The notes under the pieces are model-generated. The model was not told where the DNA came from. It did no database searches and saw nothing but the letters and a program-made list of their open reading frames with translations. A program made the translations under genes and the position numbers. A DNA stretch of 56,272 nucleotides from a virus: IMG/VR virus record IMGVR_UViG_3300031576_000051, positions 1 to 56,272 of that record; one strand, given 5' to 3'. Below, in pieces: positions 14,719-30,252 of this stretch (position 1 is the first letter of the stretch; each line of letters opens with the position of its first letter).

Positions 14719-14954
14719 ACAAGCCGCAGAGGAGGTTCGTCGTTACGGTCGAGGTGAGCGGCGACGAATGGGAGGACGTCAAGATGCAGCTTCGCGATCT
14801 GCTGCCGCACCTGGAGGACCATGGCCCTCGATGCGACTCGGTGGGAGGCGGAGTCTCGTCGGGCCATTGGGTTCGCGTCGTGGAGAACCCCGAGATGACC
14901 AACGAGCGCTACCACGAGGCGCTCGACAGATACCTAGGCCTGGAGAAGACATGA
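14715..14954 (+). CDS. Small alpha/beta protein, unknown
   Basis: A 79-residue protein at an ATGA overlap. It reads as a beta strand (RRFVVTVEVSG), a helix (DEWEDVKMQLRDLLPHLE) and another strand (GHWVRVVENP), a small ferredoxin-like layout. It overlaps the MT-A70 gene by four bases. No family is recognised. Confidence 0.58.
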   Translation: MNKPQRRFVVTVEVSGDEWEDVKMQLRDLLPHLEDHGPRCDSVGGGVSSGHWVRVVENPEMTNERYHEALDRYLGLEKT

Positions 14955-15565
14955 GGCGCTACCGCACGGGCTGCTTCGACCCGCCGTGGCCGGAGCACGG
15001 AGGAGGCAAGGTCAAGCGTGGCGCAGATCGTCACTATCCGTTGATGAAGGTGCGGGAGATCCGTGAGCTTCGGATCCGCGGGCGCTACCTGATGGACTCG
15101 TTCGAGGACGATTCGCACATGTACCTCTGGGCGACGAACAACTTTCTCGAGGCCGCGTTCGACGTCCTGAAGGCGTGGGAGTTCCGCTACGTGACCTGCG
15201 TCACCTGGGGCAAGGTTGAGCTGCGGGACGTTCCGCAGGATCTCCTCCTGGCCTCCGGCGTCGGCGTGAACGACCTCGTGCGGATCCAGACGGGCCTAGG
15301 CCAATACTTCAGGGGCGCGACGGAGCACCTTCTGTTCGGCGTGCGCGGGCGACTCCCCTACCGCACGAACCCGATCACGGGCAAAAGGGCGCAGGGCCGA
15401 ACGCTCGTGCTCTGCCCGCGCGTGAAGGAGGAGGCGAAGGACAAGCACTCGAGGAAGCCGCAGGTCTTCTATGACGCCGTGCGGCTGGTGAGCCCCGGGC
15501 CGTACCTCGAAGGCTTCGCCAGGCGCCCGCGCAAGGGCTGGGCTGTTTGGGGCAACGAGGTGTAG
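14951..15565 (+). CDS. MT-A70 family DNA N6-adenine methyltransferase
   Basis: A 204-residue protein, ATG at 14951. The catalytic DPPW motif is at residues 10-13 (CFDPPWPEHGGG). MYLWATNNFLEAAFDVLKAWEFRYVTCVTWGK and EHLLFGVRGR are the other hallmarks of the MT-A70 class, whose members methylate adenine N6 using S-adenosylmethionine. Phage members are usually solitary and thought to protect DNA from host restriction. It lies within an overlapped operon, without a matching nuclease. Confidence 0.85.
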   Translation: MRRYRTGCFDPPWPEHGGGKVKRGADRHYPLMKVREIRELRIRGRYLMDSFEDDSHMYLWATNNFLEAAFDVLKAWEFRYVTCVTWGKVELRDVPQDLLLASGVGVNDLVRIQTGLGQYFRGATEHLLFGVRGRLPYRTNPITGKRAQGRTLVLCPRVKEEAKDKHSRKPQVFYDAVRLVSPGPYLEGFARRPRKGWAVWGNEV

Positions 15566-15942: not shown

Positions 15943-16140
15943 ATGGAAAGGTTGCAGATGATGATCGCGATGCAATTGATGGGGATGACGATGAGCAAGG
16001 GGAGAGCCGCGACGCCCGCGGAGATCGACTCGTTCGTCGCCGCGGCGAAGATGGCGCTCGAGAAGTGCTACGCCGTCTGGCCGCAGGTGGATGACCTGGA
16101 GCGAAAGGCAGACGCGGCTCGAGCGGGGAGGCCTCGGTGA
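15943..16140 (+). CDS. Small helical protein, unknown
   Basis: A 65-residue protein with a Met-rich N-terminus (MERLQMMIAMQLMGMTM) and a helical C-terminus containing KADAARAG. It starts three bases after the previous stop and overlaps the next gene by four bases (GTGA). Function unknown. Confidence 0.55.
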   Translation: MERLQMMIAMQLMGMTMSKGRAATPAEIDSFVAAAKMALEKCYAVWPQVDDLERKADAARAGRPR

Positions 16141-16604
16141 GCGGCATGGAGTTCAGCGGCGCCGGCGTCAAGCACGACCTGGGGAAGCCTCGCTACGACC
16201 TCGTGCCCACCCGAGCCGTGCGCGAGTTCGTCGAGGTGCTGACCTTCGGCGCCAAGAAGTACACGGCCAACGGGTGGAGGAAGGTCGTGGGCTGGCGCTG
16301 GCGCTACCTCCGAGCGGCGCTCACCCACGTGTTCCAGTTCCTCGGAGGTCAGGCGCGCGATCCAGAGACGAACCTCCACCACCTGGCCCACGCGCTCTGC
16401 TGCCTCTTCTTCGTGCTCGAGCACGAGCTGATCCTCGAGCTTGGGACGAAGGCGGAGCGCGCGCTCGTTCCCGACGGCGACGCGGAGGCTCCGCCCGGCT
16501 CGCAGGAGGCCCCCAACTTCGAAACCAAGATGGATCCGAACGGGGCGCCGGATCGCTGGTCGCTGGTCAACGGAAAGAGGAAGCGCAAGGGGAGGGGGCG
16601 ATGA
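16137..16604 (+). CDS. dATP/dGTP diphosphohydrolase-like (DUF5664)
   Basis: A 155-residue protein from the GTG at 16137 (an ATG at 16146 is possible). The family signature is clear: KHDLGKPRYDLVP, VLTFGAKKYTANGWRK, WRWRYLRAALTHVFQFLGG, DPETNLHHLAHALCCLFFVLE. This all-helical family is annotated as a dATP/dGTP diphosphohydrolase and is frequent in phages. It probably trims host deoxynucleotide pools. The C-terminal 45 residues are Pro/Lys-rich and probably disordered. Confidence 0.75.
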   Translation: MSGMEFSGAGVKHDLGKPRYDLVPTRAVREFVEVLTFGAKKYTANGWRKVVGWRWRYLRAALTHVFQFLGGQARDPETNLHHLAHALCCLFFVLEHELILELGTKAERALVPDGDAEAPPGSQEAPNFETKMDPNGAPDRWSLVNGKRKRKGRGR

Positions 16605-16714
16605 CCTTCTGGCAGTTCGCCGACGCCCATCCATTCGTCACGCTCGCCTGCGCGTGGCTCGCGGCGATGACGACGATGTACGTGGCCTATCAAATCGGAG
16701 GGAGGCGGAAATGA
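16601..16714 (+). CDS. Tiny single-pass membrane protein
   Basis: A 37-residue protein at ATGA overlaps on both sides. Nearly all of it is one membrane helix (HPFVTLACAWLAAMTTMYVAYQI) ending in GGRRK. The conserved overlap architecture and sensible hydrophobic pattern argue that it is real. Function unknown. Confidence 0.55.
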   Translation: MTFWQFADAHPFVTLACAWLAAMTTMYVAYQIGGRRK

Positions 16715-17355
16715 AGATCTACCTGGCGAGCAGCTGGCGCAACAAGGAGTTCCCACGCGTCAGAGATCTGCTGAGGTCGGCGGGCAACGAGGTCTACGAT
16801 TTCACGAAAGCGGCGACCGCGTTCCACTGGTCGGCTCTCGACCCCGAGTGGGAGAGATGGTCGAGCGCGACGTTCAGGGACGCCCTCGACCACCCGCTCG
16901 CGGACGCCGCGTTCAGGGCGGACATGGATGCGCTCGAGGGTTGCGAGGCCTGCGTGCTCCTCCTTCCGTGCAACCGCTCCGCCCATCTCGAGGCGGGCCA
17001 TGCGGTCGCGGCGGGCAAGCGGGTCGTCGTGATGACGGACAGCCTCGAGCGGCCGGAGCTGATGTACAAGATGACCCACGCGGTCGTGCTCTCCGATGAG
17101 GAGCTGCTCGCCGCGCTGGCGAATCCCCGAGAGCTAACCGACGCCGAGGCGAAGCTGATGGACGTAGAGGCCTGCTACAGACACCTCGAGGCCGGAGCGG
17201 CTCACCCCATCGTCGCCGAGCGGATGCGAGACGAGCGGCTCCTGACTTGGTTCAAGGTCGGGGAGAACACCATCAAGAGCCAGCGCGAACGCATCGAGGA
17301 ACTGGAGAAGCGACCGAAGTGGACGGGGCCAGGTCCGATGCCGGACGTCAGCTGA
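16711..17355 (+). CDS. Nucleoside 2-deoxyribosyltransferase-like protein
   Basis: A 214-residue protein. MKIYLASSWRNKE at the start, DMDALEGCEACVLLLPCNRSAHLEAGHAVAAGK in the middle (Glu of HLEAGHA is the usual nucleophile) and VVVMTD match the nucleoside 2-deoxyribosyltransferase fold. Such proteins cleave or exchange bases of deoxynucleosides or nucleotides. The C-terminal 70 residues are helical and may be a separate addition. It sits beside DUF5664, suggesting a nucleotide pool role; substrate unknown. Confidence 0.72.
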   Translation: MKIYLASSWRNKEFPRVRDLLRSAGNEVYDFTKAATAFHWSALDPEWERWSSATFRDALDHPLADAAFRADMDALEGCEACVLLLPCNRSAHLEAGHAVAAGKRVVVMTDSLERPELMYKMTHAVVLSDEELLAALANPRELTDAEAKLMDVEACYRHLEAGAAHPIVAERMRDERLLTWFKVGENTIKSQRERIEELEKRPKWTGPGPMPDVS

Positions 17356-21908: not shown

Positions 21909-22304
21909 ATGTCGAAGAAGAACGTGAAGAAGCTCGTCGCCTCGAAATCGTCGAAGCCGTCGCTCTCGGACCTCGTGAGCGGGAAGTCGGAGGCGGTCGC
22001 GAAGGCGGTCGCTGAGAGGCGGGCGACGAACGACAAGGCCCTCGCGAAGGCGGCGGCGCAGGAGAAGGTCGCGGCGAAGAAGGACGGGAAGGCGGCGAAG
22101 GAGACGACCCGCAAGCCCGGCAGCGGCGCGCTGATCCGCGAGATGCTGATGAAGGGGGAGACTCCCGAGCGAATCGTCGCCGCGGTCCTGAAGGCCTTCC
22201 CCGATCGGAACACGACGAAGGGCGATGTCGCCTGGAACAAGTGGGACATGAAGCGGAAGGGCGTGAAGGTCCCCGAGACGCGGAAGGTCGCCGCGAAGGC
22301 CTGA
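21909..22304 (+). CDS. Basic protein with C-terminal PGSG/IRE module (copy 1)
   Basis: A 131-residue protein. The N-terminal 70 residues are Lys/Ala-rich and probably disordered, like a histone tail. The last 60 residues start KPGSGALIREMLMKGETPER and contain GDVAWNKWDMKRKGVKVPE. The same module ends the proteins at 25171 and 26998. Its helix pattern suggests a small helix-turn-helix-like DNA-binding unit, but this is inference. It follows leader element A. Confidence 0.65.
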   Translation: MSKKNVKKLVASKSSKPSLSDLVSGKSEAVAKAVAERRATNDKALAKAAAQEKVAAKKDGKAAKETTRKPGSGALIREMLMKGETPERIVAAVLKAFPDRNTTKGDVAWNKWDMKRKGVKVPETRKVAAKA

Positions 22305-24435: not shown

Positions 24436-24611
24436 AGAAGCCCGAGCCGCCGAAGTTCAAGGAGCTTCTCGCCAGGTTCGAGCTAGAGGCTCGTTCGCAT
24501 CAGATGGAGGAGAAGGCAGACATGCGCTCGTGCCTCAAGCAAGACCTCGAGAGGACGCGCTCGCAGCTGCTCGAGATGTTCCATCGCGCCAGGTTCGGAG
24601 CCCGCCCATGA
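24432..24611 (+). CDS. Small helical protein, unknown
   Basis: A 59-residue protein beginning MKKPEPPKFKELLARFELEA, starting at an ATGA overlap with the upstream -1 frame. It is helical and charged. It overlaps the glycosylase gene by four bases, so the two are probably translated together. Function unknown. Confidence 0.58.
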   Translation: MKKPEPPKFKELLARFELEARSHQMEEKADMRSCLKQDLERTRSQLLEMFHRARFGARP

Positions 24612-25066
24612 AGACTCCTCTCAAGCGTTCTCCGTTCGACCTCATGCAAGAGCGGCTGCGGAGGCGTCCGTGGGCCCTGCTCGTCGGTTGCGTCCTCTAC
24701 AACCGAACGCGTGGGGAGCACGCATGGCCCGTCCTCTGGAGCTTCCTCGCCGACTGGAGAAGTCCTGAGAACGTGGTGGACGAATACCAGGCCGATCCGC
24801 AGGACGTGCTGGACCTGTTAGAGCTTCGGTTCGCCACGCTCGGATTCATGCGACGTCGGGCGAAGGCGGTCGTCGCCTTGAGCCACGCGTTCATCGGCTT
24901 CGACCTCGAGCGCGGGGACGTGGAGAGGCTCCCCGGCTGCGGGAGGTACGCGGCGGAGAGCTTCGAGATCTTCGTGCGCGGTCGGCTCGTGCCGAAGCCT
25001 CAGGACAAGGAGCTGAGGCGCTACGTTCAATGGGCCCGCGCTCAAGGAGGGAGGAGCCACACCTAG
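24608..25066 (+). CDS. MBD4-like mismatch DNA glycosylase (HhH-GPD)
   Basis: A 152-residue protein resembling the catalytic domain of vertebrate MBD4. Matching phrases: RSPFDLMQERL, PWALLVGCVLYNRTRGEHAW, PVLWSFL, the helix-hairpin-helix LPGCGRYAAESFEIF (residues 108-122) and PQDKELRRY with the catalytic-type Asp133. Related MBD4 text, from memory, is RSPFNLVQETL, NRTSGKMAIPVLWKFL and PEDHKLNKY. MBD4 removes T, U or 5-hydroxymethyl-U opposite G. The enzyme lacks the EndoIII iron-sulphur Cys cluster. In context with cytosine-modifying genes downstream it may repair deaminated cytosines. Confidence 0.82.
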   Translation: MKTPLKRSPFDLMQERLRRRPWALLVGCVLYNRTRGEHAWPVLWSFLADWRSPENVVDEYQADPQDVLDLLELRFATLGFMRRRAKAVVALSHAFIGFDLERGDVERLPGCGRYAAESFEIFVRGRLVPKPQDKELRRYVQWARAQGGRSHT

Positions 25067-25170
25067 GCCGCGAAGAAAGATGCGATGGACGATGGACTGT
25101 TTGAATGGCGGTGAGCTAGACTGATGATCGATGTAGACGTTCCACCCGTCGTGCTGAGGAAGGCAAGGTC
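25067..25170. other. Intergenic gap
   Basis: A 104-base gap after the glycosylase gene. It contains repeated GATG words and ends in the ribosome-binding site GCTGAGGAAGG. TTGAAT at about 25107 resembles a -35 box, but I find no -10 box at a proper distance. No gene is seen. Confidence 0.3.
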
Positions 25171-26073
25171 ATGAAGAAGAAAGCGTCGAAGGCGAAGCCC
25201 AACCCGAAGATGAAGCGGCAGCTCGTCGCCCAGCTGAGAGCCAAGCAGGCGAAGGAGAAGAAGGGGCCAGGCTTCGAGATGAACGAAGAGGAGCTGAAGC
25301 AGCAGGCCTCGAGGCCCCAACCAGAGGTTGCCTCCCTCCCGTGTCCTGACTGCGACGAGCCCCTCTCGCCGATGAACAGGAGCATCCTGCAGGACGGCAG
25401 GGTCATCCACATCGGCTGCAAGGCGCCGAAGAAGACGACGGAGCGGCCGCGCGCGGAGAAGGAGGCGGAGCCGATCCTCTCCGGCCTGCCGAAGCATAGG
25501 AACGTGAAGCCGCCGAAGCCGGCGCCTCCGTTCAAGTCGGAGTTCGGAGACATCATTCCGATGGGCGACTACGCCGGGAGGACCTGCCTGCAGCTGAGGC
25601 GGGACGCGGCGACGGTCACGTTCATCAACACCGGAGATCAGTTCGGCATGCACCTGAACTACGAACCGAAGGAGAGGTTCGACGCCAGGTTCAAGCCGCT
25701 GGAGAAGTACCCCGTGAAGAAGGCGGTCGAGCACTTCGTCAAGTGCGCGGTCGATTACGGGGCAACGCAGGACGTCCTGGATTGGCTGGGACGGGTGGTG
25801 ACTCTCAAGGAGGAGCAGATCATGGCTGCAAAGAAGAAGCTGGCTGGCGCGTCGAACGGCAACGGCAAGGGCGTGAAGAAGTCGTCGGGCCCGAAGAAGC
25901 CGGGGAGCGGCTCGCGCATTCGGGAGCTGATCCTGAAGGCGACGCCGACGGAGAAGATCCTCTCCATCATCCGCAAGGAGTTCCCCGGCTCGAAGGCGAA
26001 GGCCTCCGACGTGTCGTGGAACCGCGGCAAGCTGAAGAACGACGGGGTGAAGATCCCCGAGCCGAAGGGCTAG
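25171..26073 (+). CDS. Multi-domain protein with C-terminal PGSG/IRE module (copy 2)
   Basis: A 300-residue protein. Residues 1-55 are Lys-rich. Residues about 58-84 have LPCPDCDEPL and HIGC, a probable zinc site. Residues about 125-205 form a region with FGDIIPMGDYAGRTCLQLRR and AVEHFVKCAVDYGATQDVLD, not recognised. A Lys/Gly linker leads to KPGSGSRIRELILKATPTEK ... DVSWNRGKLKNDGVKIPEP, the module shared with the genes at 21909 and 26998. Nucleic-acid binding is plausible but unproven. Confidence 0.65.
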   Translation: MKKKASKAKPNPKMKRQLVAQLRAKQAKEKKGPGFEMNEEELKQQASRPQPEVASLPCPDCDEPLSPMNRSILQDGRVIHIGCKAPKKTTERPRAEKEAEPILSGLPKHRNVKPPKPAPPFKSEFGDIIPMGDYAGRTCLQLRRDAATVTFINTGDQFGMHLNYEPKERFDARFKPLEKYPVKKAVEHFVKCAVDYGATQDVLDWLGRVVTLKEEQIMAAKKKLAGASNGNGKGVKKSSGPKKPGSGSRIRELILKATPTEKILSIIRKEFPGSKAKASDVSWNRGKLKNDGVKIPEPKG

Positions 26074-26090
26074 GACCCGTGGCTCGCGAC

Positions 26091-26216
26091 TCCCGACCCC
26101 TCCGCCGAGGCGGGGGAGGTCGGGATGCGCACGAGGCCGATGACCTGAAGGGACGTTGCCTGCGGACCTCAGCCCGCTTGGCGACCAAGCCCCAAGGTTG
26201 TCGGCCTCGTGCGCAT
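26091..26216 (+). ncRNA. Two abutting stem-loops with a 16-bp perfect stem
   Basis: Hairpin 1: TCCCGACC (26091-26098) pairs with GGTCGGGA (26118-26125), with further C/G pairing inside. Hairpin 2: ATGCGCACGAGGCCGA (26125-26140) pairs perfectly with its complement at 26201-26216, enclosing 60 bases that include GCTTGG/CCAAGC (26176-26190). A 10-bp palindrome TCAGCGCTGA (26217-26226) follows, then the ribosome-binding site of the 26240 gene. A 16-bp perfect stem by chance is very unlikely; function unknown (structured RNA, regulatory leader or recombination site). Confidence 0.6.
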
Positions 26217-26239
26217 TCAGCGCTGAGGGAGATTTGAAC

Positions 26240-27001
26240 ATGACACCGCAAACCTCCGGCCTGGCCGGAGCAGTGAAGAAGTATCTCGAGCTGCAGCTGA
26301 CGAAGGACGTGGCCACCGGCTTCGACTCCGGCGCCCGAGCGGCGCTCGGTGCCTGGAGCCGGCTCGAGGGATCCCGCCCGCCGACGGAGAGCGAGCAGGT
26401 GATGGAGTTCATGGAGAAATTCAACCACATGTTCCTCACCGGCCAGGGCGTCCCCCTTCACCGCCACCCGCCGACGAACCATCCGCGACACCTCACGCTG
26501 CGAAAGCTTCAGGAGCGATTCGTCCAGATGCAGGAGGAGCTGATCGAGGAGTTCTACGACGGCATGCACGAGCAGAGCCTCGAGAAGATGGCCGACGCTC
26601 TGATCGATCTCGTCTACTTCGCGAAGGGGACGGCGAACCTCCTCGGCCTTCCGTGGGAGGAGCTGTGGAACGACGTTCACTCCGCGAACATGCGGAAGGT
26701 CCGCGGAGAGAAGACCCGCGGAGGGATGCTCATCAAGGTGGACTGCGTGAAGCCGCCCGGATGGGTGGGGCCGCGCACGCTCGACATCCTCAAGGCCGCC
26801 GGCTATCGCCCGGGCTTCGATGACAGGTCGTTCTGGGACGACCCCGAGCACTGCCCAGGCGGGCCGCAGACGGCGGAGGACGTGGCGTTCACTTCGGTGG
26901 CAGGAGCGCCGTGCGAGGCGGTGAAGGTGTACGACGGCCGCGAGGGTCCGACGGACAAGGGCGTCGCCGGCTCCGACTCGTCGGGGGAGGGGTCGCGATG
27001 A
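26240..27001 (+). CDS. MazG-like NTP pyrophosphohydrolase
   Basis: A 253-residue protein, ATG at 26240. Residues about 45-190 match the phage phosphoribosyl-ATP pyrophosphohydrolase/MazG-like family: MEKFNHMF, LTLRKLQERFVQMQEELIEE, MADALIDLVYFAKGTANLLG, HSANMRKVRGEKTRGGMLIK and VKPPGWVGP. The E-E-x-x-E and D-x-x-D residues would bind magnesium. Such enzymes hydrolyse dNTPs to dNMP and pyrophosphate; a dCTPase role as in T4 gp56 would fit the neighbouring genes but is inference. The last 60 residues look disordered. Confidence 0.75.
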   Translation: MTPQTSGLAGAVKKYLELQLTKDVATGFDSGARAALGAWSRLEGSRPPTESEQVMEFMEKFNHMFLTGQGVPLHRHPPTNHPRHLTLRKLQERFVQMQEELIEEFYDGMHEQSLEKMADALIDLVYFAKGTANLLGLPWEELWNDVHSANMRKVRGEKTRGGMLIKVDCVKPPGWVGPRTLDILKAAGYRPGFDDRSFWDDPEHCPGGPQTAEDVAFTSVAGAPCEAVKVYDGREGPTDKGVAGSDSSGEGSR

Positions 27002-28362
27002 GCAAGCTCACCGCCCTAGGCGCCGACATCTTCGCCGGCACCTTCACCCACGGAGTCAAGGCCGCGGGCTTCGACGTCCTCGGCCACCTCGAGCACGGCC
27101 CGTATGGCGTGAAGACGGCACAGCTGAACTTCCCCAAGCTCGAGGTCCGCGTCGGCCGCCAGAACTGGAACGAGAAGGACTTCAAGGGCAAGGTCGACTT
27201 CATGTACACGAACCCGCCGTGCGCGGCCTGGAGCACGGCGCGCTCGGGACAGGGCGGAAGCTGGGAGACGCAGGTGCATCGGCTCTCCTGCGTGGATGAC
27301 GTTGTGACGGCGGGCCTCGTCATCCGTCCGAAGGCGTGGTGCTGGGAGTCGGTGACCAACGCCTGGAGGATGGGTCAGAGGTTCGTGCTTCACCAGGCAG
27401 AGCGTTGGAACGACGCAGGCTACCACTGCACCGTGCTCCTCCAGGACAACCAGTTCCTCGGAGCGGCGCAGGAGCGACAGCGCATGTTCCTCATCGCACA
27501 CCTGCACCCGCTCGTCTGGCCGAAGCTGACGCCGACGACGACCGTGGGAGAGGCGTTCAAGCTGCTGCCGAAGAAGCTCCCGCCCGAGCCGGTCACCCAC
27601 AGCGAGATGCAGCCCTACTGGAAGAAGCGCCTGTGGCCGATGAGCGACAAGTACAAGGGCTACTTCCGGCGCACGCACGAGATGGAAGGCCGCGGGCCGA
27701 TGAAGCTCGAGGGCCGCATCCCGTCCGTCCTCGTCCGCAAGCTGGACCTCGAGAAACCGGCGCCGGTGATGCTGGCCTCGAGCATCCGCCTCCACCCGTT
27801 CGAACGTCGCTACGTGAACTGGTTCGAGTGGCTCGTCCTCTGCGGCCTGCCGCTCACCTGGAAGACGAGCTGCGGCGGTGCAGACTCGGCGACGCAGGAG
27901 CTTGCTCGAGCCGTCCTCTCCCCGGTCGGCAGGTGGCTCGGCACGGCGGTGAGGAAGGGGCTCGCGCTTCCGGCCTTGAGGACACGGCCGAGCACGACGG
28001 TCGTGGACCTCCGCAAGCCCGACCATCCGTACACCCAGAAGATGTTCGACTTCGACGGGTTCACCATCGCACCCTTCGACCTCACGCCGCAGAAGCCCGC
28101 GGAGGAGCCGGTCAACAAAGCGAGCGGGTTCGCCTCCGGCAGGGCGTCGGTCGCTGCCAAGGCGGCGCTGGCGAAGAAGGGCGGAGGAGGAGCGCGCAGG
28201 CCAGGCTCGGGAGCCCGCATCCGCGAGCTGATCCTGAAGGCATGGCCGTGGGAGAGGATCGTCAAGACCGTGCACGATGAATTCCCCGGCAGCAAGGCGG
28301 GGAAGGCCGACGTCGCTTACCATAAATACCATATGCGCAAGGAAGGGGTGGCCGTACCATGA
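26998..28362 (+). CDS. C5-cytosine DNA methyltransferase with PGSG/IRE module (copy 3)
   Basis: A 454-residue protein, ATG at 26998 overlapping the previous stop. Motif I is GADIFAGTFTHGVKAAGFDV; motif IV is TNPPCAAWS with catalytic-type Cys75; motif VI is WCWESV (Glu117); motif VIII is QERQRMFLIA (158-167); motif X-like TQELARAVLSPVGRWLG is near residues 300-316. These are the hallmarks of m5C methyltransferases. The C-terminal 55 residues are the RPGSGARIRELILKAWPWER module shared with two other proteins. Target site unknown; no partner endonuclease is seen. Confidence 0.8.
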   Translation: MSKLTALGADIFAGTFTHGVKAAGFDVLGHLEHGPYGVKTAQLNFPKLEVRVGRQNWNEKDFKGKVDFMYTNPPCAAWSTARSGQGGSWETQVHRLSCVDDVVTAGLVIRPKAWCWESVTNAWRMGQRFVLHQAERWNDAGYHCTVLLQDNQFLGAAQERQRMFLIAHLHPLVWPKLTPTTTVGEAFKLLPKKLPPEPVTHSEMQPYWKKRLWPMSDKYKGYFRRTHEMEGRGPMKLEGRIPSVLVRKLDLEKPAPVMLASSIRLHPFERRYVNWFEWLVLCGLPLTWKTSCGGADSATQELARAVLSPVGRWLGTAVRKGLALPALRTRPSTTVVDLRKPDHPYTQKMFDFDGFTIAPFDLTPQKPAEEPVNKASGFASGRASVAAKAALAKKGGGGARRPGSGARIRELILKAWPWERIVKTVHDEFPGSKAGKADVAYHKYHMRKEGVAVP

Positions 28363-29165
28363 ACTTCGACGACGTTTGGAGAAAGCTCCTTTGGCAGATC
28401 CTGACGACGGGCCGCCAGGTGAGCCCGCGCGGTCAGAGGACGAAGGAGCTGCCGATGCACACGATCTCCGTCGATATGAGGAAGCCGGTGCTGACCGTGC
28501 CGGAGCGCAAGCTGTGGTACGGGTTCATGGCAGCGGAGGCTCACTGGATGCTGATGGGTTCGGACAGGCTCGCGGACCTCGAGCAGTGGGGAAAGAACGT
28601 CGCGAGGTTCAGCGATGACGGCTCCACGTTCTTCGGCGCCTACGGCCCGAAGATCCTCGATCAGCTGGACTACGTGGTGGCGAAGCTGCTCGAGGATCCG
28701 GTGTCAAGGCAGGCGGGCCTCACCATCTGGAGAGAGAAGCCGCCGAAGACGAAGGACGTTCCCTGCACCGTCGCGATGTTCTTCACCGTGCGCCAAGGGG
28801 AGGGGCAGCCGATGCTCGAGGCGAACGTGTTCATGAGGTCGAACGACGCGTGGCTCGGGACGCCGTACGACGTCTTCAACTTCTCCATGGTCGCCCATCT
28901 CGTCGCGGCCAGGGTGAACGAAGCGCTCGGCGGGCGACTCCCGATGGTCACGCCCGGAACCCTACGCCTCGCCGCCGCGTCGTCTCACCTGTACGAGGGG
29001 AACTGGGAGGCTGCGGCCATCTGCGCCAGGCCCGTCGAGGGCACCGAGCAGGAGCCCTCTCCCGAGGCTCTGTTCACTTCGGCCGTCGCGCTTCGGCGTA
29101 CGCTGAAGGAGCTGCGGGAGTCGAAGCCCGGCGACGCTCTCAGATGGTGGGAGGCGAAACCATGA
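28359..29165 (+). CDS. Thymidylate synthase family, predicted dCMP (hydroxy)methylase
   Basis: A 268-residue protein, ATGA overlap. Family marks: FMAAEAHWMLMGSD, FFGAYGPKI, catalytic Cys136 in DVPCTVAMFF, and R160SNDAWLGTPYD171VFNF. In thymidylate synthases the last motif ends P-F-N, and the Asn (E. coli Asn177) selects dUMP; T4 dCMP hydroxymethylase has Asp there. Here Asp171 occupies that position, so dCMP is the predicted substrate. The product could be 5-hydroxymethyl- or 5-methyl-dCMP. A deaminase and MazG-like gene lie close by. Confidence 0.8.
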   Translation: MNFDDVWRKLLWQILTTGRQVSPRGQRTKELPMHTISVDMRKPVLTVPERKLWYGFMAAEAHWMLMGSDRLADLEQWGKNVARFSDDGSTFFGAYGPKILDQLDYVVAKLLEDPVSRQAGLTIWREKPPKTKDVPCTVAMFFTVRQGEGQPMLEANVFMRSNDAWLGTPYDVFNFSMVAHLVAARVNEALGGRLPMVTPGTLRLAAASSHLYEGNWEAAAICARPVEGTEQEPSPEALFTSAVALRRTLKELRESKPGDALRWWEAKP

Positions 29166-29440
29166 AAGGGTGGAGAGTGACCGACTTGGGCAACGGTCGA
29201 GCGGAGGTCGCCATCTCGTGGGACGGAATGCGCGAGGCGACGTTGGCCGCGGAGGCGGACGAGCTGCAGGCGATGATCGTCGACCTGGCCGGCGCCTACT
29301 ACCGCATCACCGGAGCACTCCCGCCTGCCGTGCGAAGGGCCGACGTCGGAGCGGCGAGTCGCACGGCTCCACCACGTGCGCAGATCCTCAAGGCAGCCGA
29401 GGCATCGAGGACGAAGAACCGAGCGAGGGCGCGCCGATGA
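29162..29440 (+). CDS. Small protein, unknown
   Basis: A 92-residue protein, ATGA overlaps on both sides. The first half is beta/alpha (WRVTDLGNGRAEVAISWDGM, then a helix EADELQAMIVDLAGAYYRIT); the C-terminal 35 residues are basic and probably disordered. It lies between the dCMP (hydroxy)methylase and deaminase genes. Function unknown. Confidence 0.58.
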   Translation: MKGWRVTDLGNGRAEVAISWDGMREATLAAEADELQAMIVDLAGAYYRITGALPPAVRRADVGAASRTAPPRAQILKAAEASRTKNRARARR

Positions 29441-29719
29441 TCTTCGTGCTCGATAGGTACGGCAAGCCTCGCCCTCCTCAGCTGCCCTGCGGCTGCAGGG
29501 TCATCGGGAACCTCAAGGCCATCGGTCTCGACGGCGAACCCATCCCGGGCGTGACCGGTCTCAACTCGAAGACCGGGTGGCTGCGTGTGCAGAGGTACAT
29601 CGTGTTCCCCGGGCTCCTCCGCCGCCGCCACGGAGGCGGGACTTCAGACGATCCAGGTCACGGCTCCGTTCGAGCTTCGTTGCAAGGTCCACGGTCTGCT
29701 CAAGGAAGAGGAGGGCTGA
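29437..29719 (+). CDS. Small Cys-containing protein, apparent +1 frameshift
   Basis: From ATG 29437 the frame reads MIFVLDRYGKPRPPQLPCGC and remains natural through GWLRVQRY. After about 29600 the same frame becomes Arg/Gly-rich and runs on without a stop into the deaminase. In the +1 frame, TIQVTAPFELRCKVHGLLKE looks natural and stops at 29719, two bases before the deaminase ATG. The simplest reading is one protein of about 93 residues with an indel or recoding near 29605-29640. A fusion to the deaminase is less likely. Confidence 0.4.
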
Positions 29720-29721
29720 CG

Positions 29722-30252
29722 ATGCATCGAACGATCCAGGACAGACCCGAGAAGGATGAGACGTGGCTGAACGTCGCGCGAGAGATCTCGAGACGGTCCA
29801 CCTGCTACCGCCTGGCGGTCGGCGCCGTGCTCATCGACGTCCGAGGCTACGTGATGTCGACGGGGTACAACGGACGAGCGACGGGCGAGGAGAACTGCAA
29901 CGAGCCGTCGCTGAGACCGATCTCCGAGGCGGAGCGCCGCCAGGTGCGAGGCTGGACCTCTCCGCCCGACGCGAAGAAGACAGTCTATCTTCATCGCTGC
30001 GCGAACAGCGACGCGGAGATCGGCAAGCCCAACGGATGCGAGAGCATCCACGCCGAACAGAACGCGCTGATGCAGTGCCGCGACGTCTGGAGCATCGGCA
30101 CGTGCTACGTCACGCACAGCCCTTGTCTGCCGTGCGTGAAGATGCTCATGAACACGAGCTGCAGGCGGGTCGTCTTCGGCGCCGAGTACCCGAGCGGCGG
30201 GGCGCGTGAGCTGTGGGAACGCTCCGGCCGACTCTGGGTGCCGAGGGGCTAG
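29722..30252 (+). CDS. dCMP deaminase
   Basis: A 176-residue protein of the zinc-dependent deoxycytidylate deaminase family. H110AEQNAL supplies the zinc His and catalytic Glu112; PCLPC (Cys135, Cys138) supplies the other ligands. YRLAVGAVLIDVRGYVMSTGYNG at the N-terminus and an inserted CESI-type Cys/His region (HRCANSD...GCES) are typical. It converts dCMP to dUMP, feeding dTTP synthesis. Together with the dCMP-specific synthase homologue it would set the balance of cytosine fates, as in T4. Last gene of the rightward block. Confidence 0.9.
   Translation: MHRTIQDRPEKDETWLNVAREISRRSTCYRLAVGAVLIDVRGYVMSTGYNGRATGEENCNEPSLRPISEAERRQVRGWTSPPDAKKTVYLHRCANSDAEIGKPNGCESIHAEQNALMQCRDVWSIGTCYVTHSPCLPCVKMLMNTSCRRVVFGAEYPSGGARELWERSGRLWVPRG

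Follow-up and report, generated by a model that had tools for sequence, protein, structure and literature searches.

In this study, a putative cytosine-modification island was analysed in IMGVR_UViG_3300031576_000051, the record of a siphophage (a virus of bacteria) whose whole stretch of 56,272 bp is referred to below as the window. The island encodes, all on the + strand between positions 24608 and 30252, members of five families: (i) an MBD4-type mismatch DNA glycosylase, (ii) a MazG-like nucleoside triphosphate (NTP) pyrophosphohydrolase, (iii) a C5-cytosine DNA methyltransferase (C5-MTase), (iv) a thymidylate synthase (TS)-family enzyme predicted to be a deoxycytidine monophosphate (dCMP) 5-hydroxymethylase and (v) a dCMP deaminase. 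These family calls, made in an earlier note from the letters of the DNA, are borne out by Pfam, PHROG and PDB matches. On balance we favour the view, also put forward there, that the island makes a 5-substituted cytosine and repairs its decay. It is supported by the MBD4 catalytic set of the glycosylase and by the link of this gene, in other phages, to synthases with Asp in place of the Asn177 of Escherichia coli TS (Asp-type); the co-operation of the genes, like the substrate of each enzyme and the base in the virion, is what we infer from these observations.

The glycosylase (24608..25066, 152 amino acids (aa); an alternative in-frame GTG start is possible at 24530) was assigned from both sequence and predicted fold. 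Its PDB sequence matches at E ≤ 0.01 were exclusively MBD4, with 15 different sequences and a lowest E of 2e-17. The Pfam HhH-GPD model scores the protein at 20.8 bits, below the cut-off of 26.2, and the PHROG profiles miss it. An AlphaFold model, built on an alignment of 30 sequences of which 29 were viral homologues, reached a pLDDT (predicted local distance difference test) of 92.4, and its top 16 Foldseek matches were all MBD4. VIA-align superposed it on 4ea5, i.e. MBD4 bound to DNA with 5-hydroxymethyluracil (hmU), with Z 20.2, a root mean square deviation of 1.6 Å, 135 aligned residues and 32% identity; the next-best family was endonuclease III (Z 13.0).

The catalytic Asp560 and the thymine-reading Gln449 and Tyr540 of human MBD4 correspond to D133, Q14 and Y114 of the phage protein, and R33 corresponds to Arg468, the finger required for T:G activity. 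The likeness to the vertebrate glycosylase domain thus extends over the fold and Q449, R468, Y540 and D560, with two differences: the second intercalating residue, L508, is replaced by Phe80, and the methyl-CpG-binding domain of full-length MBD4 is missing. As judged from sequence and model, the 152-aa protein is therefore an MBD4-type glycosylase domain and not MBD4 as such. At the Arg468 site most phage homologues in our tree (described below) have Leu or Gln, and 14 of the 16 other TS-linked glycosylases have Leu. Arg is kept by the window, by the distant contig G125/L030 and by one more TS-linked sequence, which makes the window protein the closer copy of MBD4 at these residues. MBD4 has been described as acting on G/T and G/U and also on 5-hydroxymethyluracil (PMC5406665). 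The window enzyme is predicted to remove T or hmU that is paired with G.

Two other identities were considered and rejected. Endonuclease III, the annotation of the homologue in phage Donnerlittchen, is left far behind by MBD4 in sequence and fold, and Tyr114 occupies the site at which endonuclease III has its Lys. A Brig-type defence glycosylase is countered by the MBD4 (HhH-GPD) fold, which is far ahead of all other listed structure matches. The related idea of a Brig-like enzyme that attacks rival phages or the DNA of the host has a precedent in Brig1 and Brig3, which excise glucosyl-5-hydroxymethylcytosine and 5-hydroxymethylcytosine (5hmC) from phage DNA; however, these are members of the uracil-DNA glycosylase (UDG) superfamily (PMC11078745, PMC13160076), whereas the window protein has the fold and active site of MBD4, whose substrates are mispaired thymine, uracil and hmU (PMC5406665). 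Moreover, an enzyme that cuts 5hmC would destroy the predicted DNA of the phage itself, and we regard such a function as very improbable.

The synthase homologue (28359..29165) matches PF00303 (6e-19) and phrog_5131 (3.5e-36), and its best PDB match is the CMP 5-hydroxymethylase MilA. Its key residues, identified by aligning it to gp42 of T4, ThyA of E. coli and relatives from phages, are E60, Y95, D133, C136, T137, D171, H210 and Y212. The TS catalytic set is kept, and the dCMP-type Asp claimed in the earlier note is indeed present, within an active site of hydroxymethylase type: D171 stands at the E. coli N177 site (T4 Asp179), for which reason a canonical thymidylate synthase was rejected, and C136 is the counterpart of the T4 nucleophile Cys148. 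D133 and T137 correspond to Asp145 of gp42 and the Thr beside its Cys, where E. coli TS has Leu and His; Glu60 and Tyr96 of gp42 are matched as well. Asp145 has been described as a unique polar residue of gp42, with both D145N and D179N defective (PMC6400193), and Asp at position 177 was reported mostly from modified contigs, position 147 being the other top position (PMC8670742). Among 80 relatives of the hydroxymethylase class, Asp is found at the Asp145 site in all and the Thr in 79. The folate-pocket residues Trp82 and Val85 of T4 are not kept (Val81 and Phe84 in the window; the 80 relatives replace the Trp by I, M or L), and because Trp82 is replaced by Val, the window class is considered a separate predicted hydroxymethylase class, not an orthologue of gp42. 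By its residues, the product is predicted to be 5-hydroxymethyl-dCMP.

A second Asp-type class is represented by phage AXL1 and its group, whose enzymes also have Asp177 but carry Asn and Pro at the T4 Asp145 and Thr sites. The window synthase (D, T, V) does not follow their N143/P147/W80 pattern and shares 28–29% identity with them. Since AXL1 is kin to Xp12, in which all cytosines are 5-methylcytosine (5mC), its class is here termed methylase-like or methylase-type, and N143/P147/W80 probably marks methylation. The nearest characterised relative of the window synthase is that of AXL3 (51% identity). AXL3 DNA resisted 35 of the 37 enzymes tried, and the two that cut it have A/T-only sites (PMC7504290); of 31 enzymes tried on AXL1 DNA, 5 cut (PMC9206674).

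The other three families of the island were recognised as follows. The MazG-like enzyme (26240..27001; alternative TTG start possible upstream, at 26156) matches PF01503 (PRA-PH, 7e-10), phrog_671 (nucleotide pyrophosphohydrolase, 4e-17) and, in the PDB, the MazG-like DR2231 (4e-5); a role like that of a deoxycytidine triphosphatase (dCTPase) would fit it. The C5-MTase (26998..28362) matches PF00145 (3e-15; 56.8 bits against a cut-off of 22) and phrog_116 (4e-21), and carries a C-terminal domain resembling a helix-turn-helix (HTH). Its PPC, ESV and QxRxR motifs are shared with the seven IMG/VR relatives aligned; the usual form of the second motif is ENV, and cyanophage S-TIM54 reads ENA. The dCMP deaminase (29722..30252, 176 aa) matches PF00383 (2e-18), phrog_174 (3e-32) and deoxycytidylate deaminases of the PDB, including 1vq2, and has HAE and PCLPC zinc motifs. 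Overlaps of 4 bp link the genes for the MazG-like enzyme, the C5-MTase, the synthase and a small 92-aa protein, each to the next, which suggests that these four lie on one transcript. The order glycosylase, MazG, TS, deaminase recurs in phages Donnerlittchen, AXL1, YB23 and DoCa6; this shared order and the 4-bp overlaps in the window place the neighbourhood beyond chance.

These genes can be arranged into a pathway. The MazG-like enzyme would convert deoxycytidine triphosphate to dCMP, which the TS-family enzyme would turn into 5-hydroxymethyl-dCMP; kinases of the host (no kinase gene being recognised in the window) would phosphorylate this nucleotide, which would then be polymerised in place of C. 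Part of the dCMP would be diverted by the deaminase to deoxyuridine and thymidine monophosphates, and the C5-MTase would add 5-methyl groups to some remaining cytosines, or act early. Deamination would produce hmU:G from 5hmC and T:G from 5mC, pairs on which ordinary UDG is not expected to act. The glycosylase would flip out hmU or T opposite G, with Asp133 cutting the glycosidic bond and Arg33 holding the orphan G, and the resulting abasic site would pass to the repair system of the host. The C5-MTase may be the source of some or all of these lesions.

The association of the glycosylase with Asp-type synthases was examined in sequenced phages and in viral contigs. Among 50,697 phage records, eight glycosylase matches were obtained, representing five phages (AXL1, DoCa6, YB23, Donnerlittchen and S-TIM54), which by our reading form only two lineages. 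All five have an Asp-type TS, and a TS of any kind was found in 4180 of the 50,697 records. In the first four phages the gene lies directly upstream of those for MazG, the Asp-type TS and dCMP deaminase, and in S-TIM54 an Asp177 TS and a C5-MTase are both located about 30 kb from it. The S-TIM54 synthase (L316:7398-8240) has Asp177 but His147 and is possibly a dCMP methylase annotated as ThyA.

A search of viral contigs with the window glycosylase alone returned nothing, and a six-sequence alignment returned 465 relatives. From IMG/VR, the best 80 of these 465, the best 80 of 224 hydroxymethylase relatives and the best 80 of 217 canonical TS relatives were analysed. Three TS sets were compared: 80 hydroxymethylase-type (all with D177 and D143), 35 methylase-type (all with D177, 34 with N143) and 80 canonical (65 with N177, 14 not callable and one with D), 50 of the last being searched as whole records. 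Six contigs belong to both the methylase-type and the glycosylase set (L181=L019, L184=L018, L185=L025, L186=L015, L187=L014 and L195=L027). With the same alignment, the glycosylase was found in 10 of the 35 methylase-type records, in none of the 80 hydroxymethylase-type records, to whose class the window belongs, and in none of the 50 canonical records; a marginal in-locus match in the canonical set (L224, 2e-4) failed the whole-record search. Fisher tests of the methylase-type set gave p 2e-6 against the hydroxymethylase-type and p 6e-5 against the canonical set. After clustering at 90% identity, with in-locus hits below 1e-10, the proportions were 9/29 versus 0/64 and 0/57 (p 1e-5 and 2e-5).

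On the glycosylase side, a TS was present within 11 of the best 80 glycosylase loci; 50 of the remaining 69 were searched as whole records, and a TS was detected elsewhere on the contig in four and not in the other 46. The 15 synthases so obtained comprise twelve with Asp177, one that is cut and two with Asn. The frequent lack of a TS would be expected if phages had acquired the protein for repair of U:G/T:G in general, its place beside the modification genes reflecting the clustering of replication genes. In line with this, the gene comes and goes in Bosavirus (in the DoCa6 annotation the copy is without a hit and the neighbours match Bosa). However, many of the TS-less contigs are short fragments, and a general repair gene is difficult to reconcile with the contrast between canonical (0/50) and methylase-type (10/35) records. 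It also conflicts with the glycosylase tree, calculated after exclusion of L224 and of hits shorter than 95 aa and after removal of 27 identical rows (98 reduced to 71). There, a branch supported at 98/80 sets apart the window, G125/L030 and AXL1-type glycosylases; the locus includes a TS in 16 of the 18 rows of this clade, and for a 17th, L030, one lies elsewhere on the contig. A general repair role is hence considered improbable.

Contig G125 (75,764 bp) holds the whole five-gene set of the window at its two ends: the glycosylase and a C5-MTase at one, and MazG, a kinase-like gene, a hydroxymethylase (D143, T147, D177; 45% identical to the window synthase) and dCMP deaminase at the opposite end. 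On a circular or permuted molecule the two groups would make up one cluster; no exact end repeat of 10–199 bases was found. As the C5-MTase directly follows the glycosylase in L030/G125, the repair enzyme might serve the C5-MTase alone, correcting site-specific 5mC to T:G changes in the manner of Vsr, with the hydroxymethylase having a separate function and being adjacent by chance. The same arrangement is approached in the related contigs G145 and G149, where no TS was found and a C5-MTase lies about 1.7 kb downstream of the glycosylase. In addition, the 80 hydroxymethylase-class records lack the glycosylase gene, and the two near relatives of these records that do carry it (the window and G125) both have a C5-MTase. 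A precedent is offered by the Burkholderia phages KL3 and AH2, in which Vsr is encoded next to a cytosine methylase, a pair proposed as a module for protection and repair of self DNA (PMC3483164). On the other side, C5-MTase genes occur without the glycosylase in 6 of the 80 hydroxymethylase-class loci, and none of the ten methylase-type carriers shows a C5-MTase in the locus; whole-record Pfam searches of six of these ten and of two further methylase-type carriers did not reveal one either. Contigs G117, G216 and G219 combine the glycosylase with an Asp-type TS, and G117 and G216 are without a C5-MTase. Service to the C5-MTase alone is therefore judged rather unlikely, if somewhat less so than general repair.

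Returning to modification coupled with repair, the frequency of the glycosylase in methylase-type records, its absence from the 80 hydroxymethylase-type records and the C5-MTases of the window and G125 hint that T:G is a stronger driver than hmU:G. Several results count against the favoured reading. In view of the 0/80 in the window's own class, 5hmC phages usually do without this enzyme. With 46 of 50 searched carriers lacking a synthase as well, the description of the glycosylase as dedicated to such repair, used in the earlier note, does not hold for 5hmC phages in general and for the window is a proposal. That note regarded rare co-occurrence of glycosylase and synthase homologue as evidence against its proposal, and here the survey is divided: co-occurrence is absent from the 80 records of the window's class and from most of the carriers searched, but is found in 10 of 35 records of the methylase-like class. 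In two glycosylase records the TS is of Asn type (one of them also has an Asp-type fragment), and in the large carriers G133 and G148 (157 and 151 kb) neither a TS nor a C5-MTase was found. Long branches lead to the window and to L030 in the tree, and their exact place there is uncertain. If all C were already 5hmC, the C5-MTase would have nothing to do, and neither the kinase-like nor the Methyltransf_23 gene, both frequent among the window's relatives, was matched in the window.

Substitute repair genes and base composition were also examined. UDG and Vsr were sought in 25 methylase-type (of 35; ten with the glycosylase) and 25 hydroxymethylase-type (of 80) records, and both were found in 0 of these 50; a deamination-repair gene as a need of every Asp-type phage is therefore not supported. 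Pfam HhH-GPD likewise gave 0/50 in hydroxymethylase-type records (50 of the 80), a count that is no test for the glycosylase family because this model under-scores the window protein; the searches with the six-sequence alignment are the valid test. TpG and CpG were compared as a sign of better repair. The TpG frequency of the window is low, only 2 of the 80 hydroxymethylase-class loci being as low. After G+C matching, TpG did not differ between methylase-type loci with and without the glycosylase (p 0.18).

The island can be compared with four known systems. The T4 pathway includes the dCTPase gp56 and a dCMP deaminase. In the window a MazG-like enzyme stands where T4 has the dCTPase, Val81 replaces Trp82 of gp42, and the C5-MTase and the MBD4-type glycosylase are additions; no glucosyltransferase was matched among the 47 window open reading frames (ORFs) scanned with Pfam. 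In the Xp12/AXL1 group (Bosavirus and kin, Bradleyvirinae) the order glycosylase, MazG, Asp-type TS, dCMP deaminase is the same, but the synthase is of the other class, dihydrofolate reductase is present and no C5-MTase was seen in the stretches examined. The homologue in AXL1, the ENDO3c protein gp65, was reported only from the related Xp12, with all its cytosines 5mC, and in the available part of that paper it is not connected with MBD4 or 5mC deamination (PMC9206674); in the available part of the Xp12 sequencing paper, an account of the 5mC pathway is reserved for a later publication (PMC7653180). The module of AXL3, PW916 and MW202621 has MazG, the hydroxymethylase (51–58% identity over the match) and the deaminase in the order of the window, but differs in possessing kinase-like and Methyltransf_23 genes and in giving no glycosylase match. 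Finally, the Vsr-methylase modules of KL3 and AH2 resemble the window in pairing cytosine methylation with a proposed repair of T:G deamination products; Vsr, however, is an endonuclease and not a glycosylase, and the part of the source available describes no cytosine replacement at the nucleotide level (PMC3483164).

Two further proteins of the island, unmentioned in the earlier note, are encoded on the + strand. The first (25171..26073, 300 aa), for which a Pfam search to E 1 gave no match, ends in a domain of about 60 aa shared with the C5-MTase (phrog_17205 over residues 235–296, and a hidden Markov model of the domain). The second is the 92-aa protein (29162..29440), whose start overlaps the hydroxymethylase stop and which has no match in Pfam or PHROG. 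The shared C-terminal domain (phrog_17205) is common to the window ORFs 21909-22304, 25171-26073 and 26998-28362. It is predicted to form three helices, HTH-like by our reading (pLDDT 81), and a fold search with it gave no significant PDB match. It was observed in 34/80 hydroxymethylase-type, 25/35 methylase-type, 9/80 glycosylase and 0/80 canonical TS loci; C5-MTases account for six of these occurrences, and in L030 it is present on the C5-MTase and on the gene preceding the glycosylase. This domain may mark modified-cytosine phages, or merely their lineage.

Two accessory genes accompany hydroxymethylases of the window class. A kinase-like gene (with weak thymidylate and cytidylate kinase matches; e.g. 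L313:3502-4230 and L003:10788-11771) occurs in 61 of the 80 hydroxymethylase-type loci and in G125, and is a candidate kinase for 5-hydroxymethyl-dCMP. A Methyltransf_23-type S-adenosylmethionine enzyme (L003:9419-10243, L009:934-1758 and L008:17781-18530), found in 65 of these 80 loci and adjoining MazG, the kinase-like gene and the hydroxymethylase in AXL3, PW916 and MW202621, is a candidate tailoring enzyme of hydroxymethylated cytosine.

Elsewhere in the window, the + strand encodes a primase, DNA polymerase A, an SNF2-type helicase and a nuclease, and the island closes this half; the − strand carries the terminase, portal, protease, capsid, tape measure and tail genes. A second nucleic-acid methyltransferase of the phage, of the MT-A70 adenine-N6 family, is encoded at 14768-15565. 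A protein with a dATP/dGTP diphosphohydrolase N-terminal domain lies at 16137-16604, and its frame is overlapped by that of a weak, below-cut-off nucleoside 2-deoxyribosyltransferase match (16441-17355).

In a literature search with most subscription journals outside its coverage, no paper was found that reports an MBD4-type glycosylase in a phage cytosine-modification module, and none on how cytosine-replacing phages cope with deamination. Modules for cytosine replacement, as in T4 and Xp12, and Vsr-methylase pairs of phages are already known; an MBD4-type glycosylase within such a module appears to be new. T4 replaces every cytosine with 5hmC and Xp12 with 5mC, and each deamination then gives hmU or T. 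A small phage enzyme that has a complete MBD4 active site, lies inside such a module and is met again in the Xp12 group opens the question of deamination to test; the enzyme is also a possible compact viral tool for T:G and hmU:G excision and a lead on the origin of the MBD4 domain. Only 2 glycosylase loci were found in a collection covering 84,980 species of bacteria and archaea, against 465 viral stretches (the pattern sets being related, not identical). A bolder and rather doubtful extension is that fully C-substituted phages carry their own MBD4-class T:G/hmU:G repair, that phages are the main reservoir of the family on the prokaryotic side and that the MBD4 domain may descend from phage enzymes. 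If this were true, the guarding of 5mC and 5hmC against deamination would be an ancient viral trick, used by animals for their epigenome.

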